Assembly (NCBI GenBank): GCA_009781725.1
Contig: WQVF01000013.1
Span: 1 to 64,000 of the forward strand
Origin: Defluviitaleaceae bacterium
Lineage (GTDB): Bacteria > Bacillota > Clostridia > Lachnospirales > WQUN01
Length of the DNA: 64,000 nucleotides
Direction of reading: 5' to 3'
Position numbers and translations under genes: made by a program. The notes under the pieces were generated by a model, which was given only the letters and a program-made list of their open reading frames with translations, was not told the origin of the DNA and ran no database searches. Positions 27,458 through 28,475 of this stretch are shown here, one piece after another. Within the stretch, counting starts at the first letter, position 1, and each line of letters starts with the position of its first letter.

Positions 27458-27587
27458 GTATATACCTCCACAGGCTCATGTGAAACCCAATAATTACCAT
27501 ATGAAAAACCCACTAAAACATGTTGAAGAAAAATGTAAAATTTGGTACCATGGTGTGGCAACAAAAAAGCCAGCGGTAATATTAGCA

Positions 27588-27765
27588 ATAAAATAACCAC
27601 GGAGCCGTGGTCGTGCCTGGAAACACTTCCACGAGCTTAGGGATGCAGAACCATCCAAAAGCACAGGTTACCCTGCCACCGCGGCAGCCCTAGTTTACAA
27701 CATTTCACCAACACCTTCAAGGCGGGACACCCCTAACCCGCCGCAGAGATAAGGTGGGATTTTGT
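27588..27765 (-). ncRNA. Probable structured non-coding RNA with terminator
   Basis: Read on the minus strand, this ~175-base segment has several stable hairpins in a row: GGCGGG/CCCGCC, CTGCC-GCGGT-GGCAG, GGATG-GTTCTG-CATCC and CGTGGAA/TTCCAGGCACG. It ends in AACCACGG-CT-CCGTGGTT followed by ATTTTATT, an intrinsic terminator. No open frame covers it, and the purine loops and single-stranded TGTAAACTAGGG look conserved. The layout reminds me of the raiA-motif class of Clostridial ncRNAs; 6S RNA is another possibility. I cannot assign it from sequence alone. Confidence 0.6.
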
Positions 27766-27821
27766 TATGCATGGATAAAGCGGCAAAGCGGCGAGTTTCT
27801 GTGTACTACGCTTGAATTTAT

Positions 27822-27865
27822 ACGCGTAGGTGAGATGGATTAGTCCATTTCCCTACGCGTTTTTT
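27822..27865 (+). terminator. Strong plus-strand intrinsic terminator
   Basis: ACGCGTAGG and CCTACGCGT close over an inner ATGGA/TCCAT stem and are followed by TTTTTT. No gene ends just upstream on this strand, so it may belong to an unrecognised transcript. It also insulates the ncRNA from the region to the right. Confidence 0.6.
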
Positions 27866-27930
27866 ATTTCCGCAGATATTCCGCTGGCCTTTTACTATAA
27901 AATGATACGAAAACAGCTCCCAAAGTCAGC

Positions 27931-28075
27931 CCCCTTCCTTCGGAAGGGGGAGCCGCGCAAGTGGCGGGGGGTTGCCAGCTTGCGTAGCGCGATGACTAAA
28001 AACCGATATTTGCGGCTTGCGTACACAACCCCTCGCCGCTGACCGCGTCTTTTCCCTTCCACGGAAGTAAACCCA
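27931..28075. repeat. GC-rich palindromic repeat (family 4)
   Basis: It begins CCCCCTTCCTTCGGAAGGGGG, continues with GGCGGGGGGTTGCCAGCTTGCG, and ends AACCCCTCGCCGC...CTTCCACGGAAG. Related sequence in two opposed halves occurs at 34478-34700, and a bare palindrome at 29997-30019. It is non-coding; open frames across it are shadows of the hairpins. Confidence 0.6.
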
Positions 28076-28099
28076 CCGATTTATGCTCGTAATGGGTGA

Positions 28100-28173
28100 T
28101 AATACGAAAGAAGGAGTGCGCAGGGGCGGCGAAGCCGCCCTGCCTCGAAGAGCTCTCATGCTCGGTTGGTGAC
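28100..28173 (-). repeat. Family-3 GC-hairpin repeat, inverted copy
   Basis: The reverse complement reads GTCACCAACCGAGCATGAGA, a GGGCGGCTTCGCCGCCC hairpin, then CACTCCTTCTTTCGTATTA, matching 43602-43688 and 57890-57974. It lies just upstream of the AbrB-like gene. Confidence 0.7.
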
Positions 28174-28210
28174 GGAAAATGCCCGTAATGGGTGGATAGG
28201 AGGAACATAA

Positions 28211-28378
28211 ATGGAATTTGTAGCAGAGAAGAAAATTGACGAACTGGGACGGATTGTTGTGCCAACGGAAGTAAGGCAGGCCAAAGGCTGGGGTGAAGGT
28301 ACAACACTCGCAATTTATACTCAAAACGACTGCGTAGTGCTTATGCCTTGCAAGTCGGATTATGAGCAAGAGACATAG
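28211..28378 (+). CDS. AbrB/SpoVT-type DNA-binding protein
   Basis: A 55-aa protein comprising one swapped-hairpin AbrB domain: KKIDELGRIVVPTEVRQAKG followed by a beta-hairpin and CVVLMP. This is the DNA-binding core shared by AbrB, SpoVT and MazE-type antitoxins. No C-terminal domain or partner toxin gene is seen, so a small transition-state or sporulation-linked regulator is the best reading. The ATG has AGGAGG 7 bases upstream. It was recognised by direct translation; it is shorter than 60 codons. A CGTCATCC repeat with a trailing T-run begins 8 bases after its stop and probably terminates it. Confidence 0.85.
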   Translation: MEFVAEKKIDELGRIVVPTEVRQAKGWGEGTTLAIYTQNDCVVLMPCKSDYEQET

Positions 28379-28386
28379 TGTTTAAG

Positions 28387-28475
28387 CCCGTCATCCTGGG
28401 CTTGACCCGGGATTCCCCGTCTTTTTACGAAAGGCTAATGGGATCCCGGATCAAGGCCGGGATGACGGTTTTTTT
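28387..28475. repeat. CGTCATCC/GGATGACG inverted repeat (family 2) acting as terminator
   Basis: CCCGTCATCCTGGGCTTGAC to GGCCGGGATGACGG, with an internal CGGGAT/ATCCCG pair, followed by seven T residues. It sits directly after the AbrB-like gene on the plus strand and before the GH29-like gene end on the minus strand. Confidence 0.7.

Follow-up and report, generated by a model that had tools for sequence, protein, structure and literature searches.

The 64,000-nucleotide (nt) stretch analyzed here (the window; positions 1 to 64,000, forward strand, of contig WQVF01000013.1, assembly GCA_009781725.1, from a Defluviitaleaceae bacterium) encodes on its minus strand, in a covariance-model match at 27583-27691, a structured RNA of about 100 nt (the RNA proper lies at approximately 27586-27685). 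We propose, with a probability of roughly 0.6, that it belongs to a family of cis-encoded antisense RNAs that would each recognize their own complement through a private loop and control the leader of a neighboring gene. This reading is built on the fold and strand of the RNA, promoter motifs on either side of it, a leader terminator, the partner gene and the hypervariability of one loop, all of which can be read from comparisons of related DNA. One of two convergent promoters would give rise to the folded RNA, and the other to a leader whose first part is the exact complement of that RNA and which would run onward to a small regulator- or toxin-like gene. The apical loop of hairpin P3 would provide private recognition of the own leader, such that 20 or more copies per cell could operate without cross-reaction. 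In the termite-gut family (Defluviitaleaceae), the bound RNA would probably hide a leader segment that otherwise pairs with the 5' arm of the leader terminator; with that segment hidden, the terminator would form and transcription would probably end ahead of the gene (attenuation). Expression of the two transcripts, their pairing in the cell and the direction of the effect are what we infer from these features.

The window RNA folds as a four-way junction, in which the closing stem P1 (5' strand GCCGCGG at 27679-27685, 3' strand CCGTGGT at 27596-27602) encloses the hairpins P2 (GCAGG-GUAA-CCUGU, 27663-27676), P3 (27635-27662, with the hypervariable apical loop GUUCUG at 27646-27651) and P4 (27606-27633), and is followed by a U-rich 3' end (27586-27595); the minus strand of this stretch has no long reading frame. 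The exact RNA (27583-27686) has a folding energy of -44.3 kcal/mol versus -32.1 kcal/mol for its shuffles (z -3.58), none of 200 of which reach this stability. Over the wide stretch 27570-27790, folding is ordinary on the minus strand, where 55 of 200 shuffles equal it (z -0.55), and better than chance on the plus strand (z -2.32). A preliminary description of the DNA had placed here a structured minus-strand non-coding RNA with its own 3' U-tract, which covariation and folding of the exact RNA support. Its frame was slightly off, as 27692-27720 are promoter boxes beyond the RNA proper and the GC-rich hairpin at 27721-27742 (GGCGGG..CCCGCC) falls outside the RNA, on the upstream side of its promoter. 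The terminator-like palindrome CCACGGCTCCGTGG turned out to consist of the 3' strand of P4 and the 3' strand of the P1 closing stem, followed by UUAUUUUAUUG.

In an alignment of 71 copies, 92.4% of the base-pair cells are paired, the alignment having been fitted to a model that already held part of the same structure. Changes on both sides are seen in 24 of the 31 pairs, the cells changed on both sides number 309 versus 97.3 in shuffles, and sliding the partners destroys the structure (32-52% paired in these controls). When other families are included (56 copies), 95.1% of the cells are paired. G-U cells outnumber A-C cells by 9:1 to 15:1 (243 vs. 27 in the 71 copies, 210 vs. 14 in a second count), and we therefore consider the minus-strand RNA to be the selected molecule; a functional plus-strand fold was rejected on this bias, despite the stable wide plus strand.

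Nowhere in the window does an Rfam match attain the gathering score of its family, and around the RNA a search up to E 5 yielded three chance-level matches only, none of them raiA or 6S; one of the three, RMST_3, overlaps the RNA on the plus strand (15.3 bits vs. a cut-off of 55). The RNA is free of overlapping matches up to E 0.5 at 15 related loci. With nothing at threshold, membership of raiA, 6S or another Rfam family was rejected, and with it the likeness to raiA and 6S put forward in the preliminary description. The RNA represents a family absent from the Rfam release searched and we rate it as a new RNA family; a search of the literature, with subscription journals, preprints and the supplementary motif lists of surveys outside its scope, returned nothing recognized as this RNA. 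The raiA motif RNA (ModT) is likewise a structured bacterial non-coding RNA (PMC11706538), and the present RNA differs from it in having no covariance-model match, other neighbors and another copy number. A stand-alone RNA that binds a protein or a ligand, for example a relative of raiA or 6S, would suit the elaborate four-way junction and the conserved P2 and P3 stems, but it agrees poorly with the Rfam result, the many copies per genome, the divergence of the loop and the divergent neighbors, and we regard it as very improbable.

A DNA search of the own genome found six places, one of them split in two pieces. Covariance model R1, built on 11 copies, found 21 copies in that genome and matched 22 of the 38 genomes of the same family (own included) at E <=0.01, in line with the conservation in related genomes by which the preliminary description was to be checked. 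Model R2, built on 71 copies, returned 21 copies in the own genome at E <=4e-6, plus two at E >0.1. Model R3 was built on 56 copies, including a second family (f22) and other members of the class; two weak extra matches (L197 and L076, the latter covering a leader on the opposite strand) had been dropped beforehand by a tighter threshold. The relatives with named records are Defluviitaleaceae bacteria assembled from the guts of higher termites, a genome collection described in PMC7024585. Of 61 loci found by a pattern scan, 50 were confirmed by the model, all in Defluviitaleaceae, and the 11 loci outside this family were discarded with none confirmed. In larger samples, in which the own genome is counted, R2 matched 25 of 295 genomes of the order at E <=1e-4 (23 of the same family and two of f22) and 8 of 391 genomes of the class; in f22 alone, it matched 2 of 22 genomes. 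R3 matched 16 of the 391 class genomes at E <=1e-5 and 3 of 398 genomes of the phylum, where the two genomes other than the own come from a single genus that lies beyond the class and one of them has eight matches; copy numbers in these large samples are lower bounds, only the best candidates having been scored.

The feature that most directly bears on recognition is the apical loop of P3. All 71 family copies have distinct P3 loops (71 of 71), compared with 62 distinct loops for P4 and 47 for P2, and among the 68 copies from genomes holding two or more, the loop is repeated within a genome 0 times for P3, 6 times for P4 and 18 times for P2. In 22 close paralogue pairs (from one genome and with an identity of 0.82 or more beyond the loop; the pairs are non-independent), mean identity is 0.31 for the P3 loop, 0.77 for the P4 loop, 0.82 for the P2 loop, 0.77 for the tail and 0.94 for the rest of the core. 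Three copies of one genome (L077, L078, and L079) are 99-100% identical in the rest of the RNA and carry the loops AATGTCT, AGGTTTA, and AGGGTTGT, which differ at half or more of their positions; their upstream DNA also differs slightly and contigs end near the copies, so that an assembly effect is possible. A further set of 49 copies, 43 of them from outside the family and six from within it, holds 48 distinct P3 loops, and within-genome repeats among 38 of these copies number 1 for P3, 2 for P4 and 13 for P2. One genome (G1001) has eight copies with eight P3 loops; outside the family, within-genome variation of the P4 loop comes close to that of P3. A loop that hardly any two copies have in common fits recognition of the own complement better than recognition of conserved distant targets. 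It might be argued that the variable loop on a constant scaffold is the seed of a trans-acting small RNA, each loop addressing a different distant mRNA. However, no P3 loop is common to any of the 71 family copies, and thus no conserved target emerges (no target search was made), and a seed leaves the convergent promoter and the terminator unexplained; this alternative seems improbable to us. The U-turn motif (YUNR) occurs in 26, 27, and 39 of the 71 loops of P2, P3, and P4, respectively, versus 16, 19, and 29 in shuffles, a modest excess that was set aside.

Both strands carry promoter motifs at the RNA. That of the RNA itself is of the sigma-70 type, and in 76 of the 78 copies with enough upstream DNA the best site ends at most 3 nt from the model start; promoter-site scoring places it in the window at TTGAAG (-35 box, 27715-27720) and TAAACT (-10 box, 27692-27697), on the minus strand with a 17-nt spacer. 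Past the 3' end of the RNA lies a convergent promoter motif. Of 37 copies from outside the family, 32 carry it, where 1.8 would be expected and the other strand has 2; it typically reads TTGCAN, 16-18 nt and TATAAT and, in 30 of these 32, ends at a distance of 6-18 nt from the RNA. Within the family it is present in 37 of 77 copies, compared with an expectation of 2.8 and with 6 on the other strand. The transcript predicted from it is the exact complement of the RNA and then meets an intrinsic terminator ahead of the gene. This leader terminator was detected in 61 of 72 family copies (five more lie too near a contig end to be counted) and in all 38 of the outside copies that have 230 nt or more of upstream DNA, compared with 40 of 360 and 13 of 190 shuffled leaders, respectively. 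Both the convergent promoter and the terminator between antisense region and gene, as an antisense-controlled attenuator would have them, thus occur in the family and outside it. The terminator is also present in the window copy, where it occupies 27822-27865 of the plus strand (arms ACGCGTAGG / CCTACGCGT, followed by T6) and would end an inferred leader transcript of 27558-27865 complementary to the RNA.

In the termite-gut family, the 5' arm of the terminator (GCGYGUAGGUGAUG) is a repeat of the P3 5' strand and, therefore, the P3 complement in the leader can pair with this arm. Of 61 family copies, 50 have the best pairing of the arm on the P3 complement (median z -2.1; below -1.5 in 35 of 61). 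The cores of P3 and the terminator are identical at 397 of 490 positions, versus 373.6 ± 4.1 after shuffling (0 of 5000 as high), a shuffle that leaves the relatedness between copies in place. This comparison was based on 49 of 52 copies with a recognizable core, three without a terminator core having been dropped and copies with a P3 core other than 10 nt having been excluded earlier. In leaders truncated ahead of the 3' arm of the terminator, the mean probability of pairing between the 5' arm and the antisense region exceeds 0.5 in 34 of 64 copies. Taken as sequence patterns, these repeats suggest antisense-controlled attenuation in the termite-gut family.

A number of observations weigh against the mechanism as proposed. 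In the full leader at equilibrium, the terminator forms regardless of the RNA (medians of 0.89 without and 0.93 with it); equilibrium switching was therefore rejected, and attenuation could only be kinetic. Outside the family, the match between P3 and the terminator is not above that of shuffles (median z -0.4; 2 of 38 copies below -1.5); the best pairing of the arm is centered on P3 in 22 of these 38. None of four f22 copies has the convergent motif, and none has a leader terminator by the same rule; with shorter leaders (170 nt) and other settings, a terminator is found in 30 of the 38 outside copies and is lacking in 8. A looser promoter score hardly separates the convergent site from its controls (8.93 in 81 copies, vs. 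8.47 in shuffles and 8.77 on the other strand), because the best of many weak sites is taken. Two copies of one f22 genome (L190 and L192) share a P3 loop and have different P4 loops, and in another genome (G400) three P3 loops differ at few positions; a single P3 repeat among 120 copies leaves the argument for self-recognition drawn from the loops as it was. Partners vary widely in kind, and a clear one is lacking for some copies. The window copy has an intact RNA and RNA promoter. Its convergent promoter consists of a -35-like box TTGAAG (27523-27528), at a position that agrees with the motif of its paralogues, and a -10-like box TACCAT (27546-27551), both on the plus strand; TACCAT is weak where many relatives have TATAGT or TATAAT, and fails the motif rule. 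Its terminator arm does not match P3 (z -0.3; pairing 0.00 in the cut leader) and pairs instead outside the antisense region (0.86); CTACGC at 27806-27811, on the plus strand, can pair with GCGTAG of the arm and is a candidate local anti-terminator. Moreover, dispersed repeats (27928-28067 and 28097-28205, without assigned strand, of two families that account for 44 matches in the own genome, the window included) separate the terminator from the partner gene. The window copy may thus be a partly decayed member, and the mechanism is therefore argued from its relatives.

In the window, the partner is a plus-strand gene (28211-28378) for an AbrB/MazE-like protein of 55 amino acids (PF04014, E 2.1e-5), the start codon of which lies 519 nt from the RNA start. 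Its score is 24.8 bits versus a cut-off of 24.7, and 23.9 bits, just below the cut-off, in the genome-wide search. A divergent PF04014 match lies at most 700 nt upstream of 17 of the 21 RNA copies in the own genome, where 0.05 would be expected; these are 17 of the 24 PF04014 matches in this genome at E <=0.01 (15 of the 24 over the Pfam cut-off). The exceptions are a copy whose contig (C31) ends 99 nt upstream of the RNA, one on C60 without an AbrB-like gene, and the two on C22 (L063 and L066), each of which faces a secreted-looking protein, the two proteins starting alike; L063 has by eye an apparent AbrB remnant. Distances between RNAs and between AbrB-like proteins correlate, with Mantel r of 0.62 for 27 pairs hand-picked by motif and 0.67 for the 17 own-genome pairs (0 of 5000 permutations each). 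The zinc-ribbon gene downstream, which the preliminary description took as the neighbor, is not conserved in this place, the downstream open reading frames (ORFs) varying by eye among the 12 loci compared, and was dropped as a partner. That the hairpins act as DNA, within a mobile or repeated element, would suit the many copies per genome and the resolvase gene beside one SymE-type copy (L215). We hardly find it credible, since the G-U bias and the conservation of the promoters point to RNA and the paralogues have diverged and are co-inherited with AbrB.

Elsewhere, SymE (PF08845) is over the cut-off in five partner proteins (those of L189, L190, L215, and L232, and the second gene of L216); SymE or SymE-like ORFs, where they are the first gene, start 88-249 nt beyond the RNA. 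In some relatives the partner is Spo0E-like (L205 and L224) or a DUF6809 protein (over the cut-off at L097 and L204, below it at L200 and L216, E 0.019 at L201 and similar by eye, without a Pfam match, at L220). Others have a Spo0A C-terminal domain (L024), a helix-turn-helix (L084 and L226) or a response regulator (L218), and some partners have signal-peptide-like starts. AbrB, Spo0A, and Spo0E belong to sporulation control, and a link of the partners with this process is a lead only.

These partners bring to mind a type I toxin-antitoxin system in the manner of SymE/SymR of Escherichia coli, in which the RNA would block translation, or trigger decay, of the mRNA of an AbrB-fold toxin and the terminator would be incidental. 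SymR represses the AbrB-fold toxin SymE from a promoter within symE, with the greater effect on protein level (PMC1891008). The likeness lies in a cis antisense RNA beside an AbrB-fold gene, most own-genome partners being AbrB-like and SymE itself being the partner in several relatives. Unlike SymR, which overlaps symE, the RNA here faces the leader, in most copies with a terminator in between, and at the loci read it stays off start codon and ORF. Many partners are not SymE, and the terminator is widely conserved. In the window, the partner matches PF04014 only, with no PF08845 match up to E 1, and the RNA does not overlap its gene. A toxin-antitoxin system of this type is, on balance, unlikely.

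Leader control by an antisense RNA, the reading that we prefer, has a precedent in RNAIII of pIP501, a structured antisense RNA of 136 nt that is made from a convergent promoter and brings transcription of the repR leader to a premature end (PMC4981023). The two have in common a structured antisense RNA, convergent promoters, termination in the leader (predicted here) and a small DNA-binding protein nearby. In contrast to pIP501, the present copies lie on chromosomal contigs, many per genome, without a Rep gene and with varied partners, and have a four-way junction and a loop that differs in nearly every copy. We rate the arrangement as a new form of antisense leader control, set apart from pIP501 and SymE/SymR because there is no Rep gene and no gene overlap. 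Antisense RNAs reportedly also act with premature termination in RnaG/icsA and in Anti-Q of pCF10. These are single plasmid loci, and we know of no family of self-specific copies among them.

If correct, the proposal would describe a naturally occurring repertoire of orthogonal antisense riboregulators, with many in each genome, on toxin-like, AbrB-like and sporulation-related genes. It would also mean that the logic of plasmid incompatibility, with new recognition loops after each duplication, works on chromosomes, and the diversification of the loop would be directly testable. We would more tentatively, and with somewhat less than even confidence, extend it to a family of portable switches with built-in self/non-self recognition that reaches beyond a single class of the phylum. 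On a constant scaffold, an apical loop of 4-10 nt would be kept unique in nearly every copy by diversifying selection or active rewriting, and one cell would thereby run 20 or more private switches. In either case, a conserved RNA family is added to those in the Rfam release searched.

With blastn, the queries tried had no match among phages or plasmids, and a phage or plasmid origin was set aside on that basis. Pattern scans of viral contigs returned 0, 6, and 0 stretches, one of the 6 (L248) carrying the RNA, with SymE-like and recombinase-like frames nearby as judged by eye. At L215, L225, and L248, the RNA has beside it a SymE-like gene and, next on the strand of that gene, a resolvase-type recombinase frame, the proteins having been scanned at L215 only. 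The second gene past SymE at L189-L192 appears by eye to be ribbon-helix-helix-like, that of L190 having no Pfam match over the cut-off. A skipping-rope RNA (RF02924, 65.4 bits; L202:2514-2597) lies about 900 nt from an RNA copy without overlapping it, and a sub-threshold group II intron match (30.8 bits vs. 49; L207:1291-1395) lies about 100 nt from another. In the window itself, an inverted repeat of 29 nt (86% complementary) with a T-run at 28388-28475 is likely the terminator of the AbrB-like gene.
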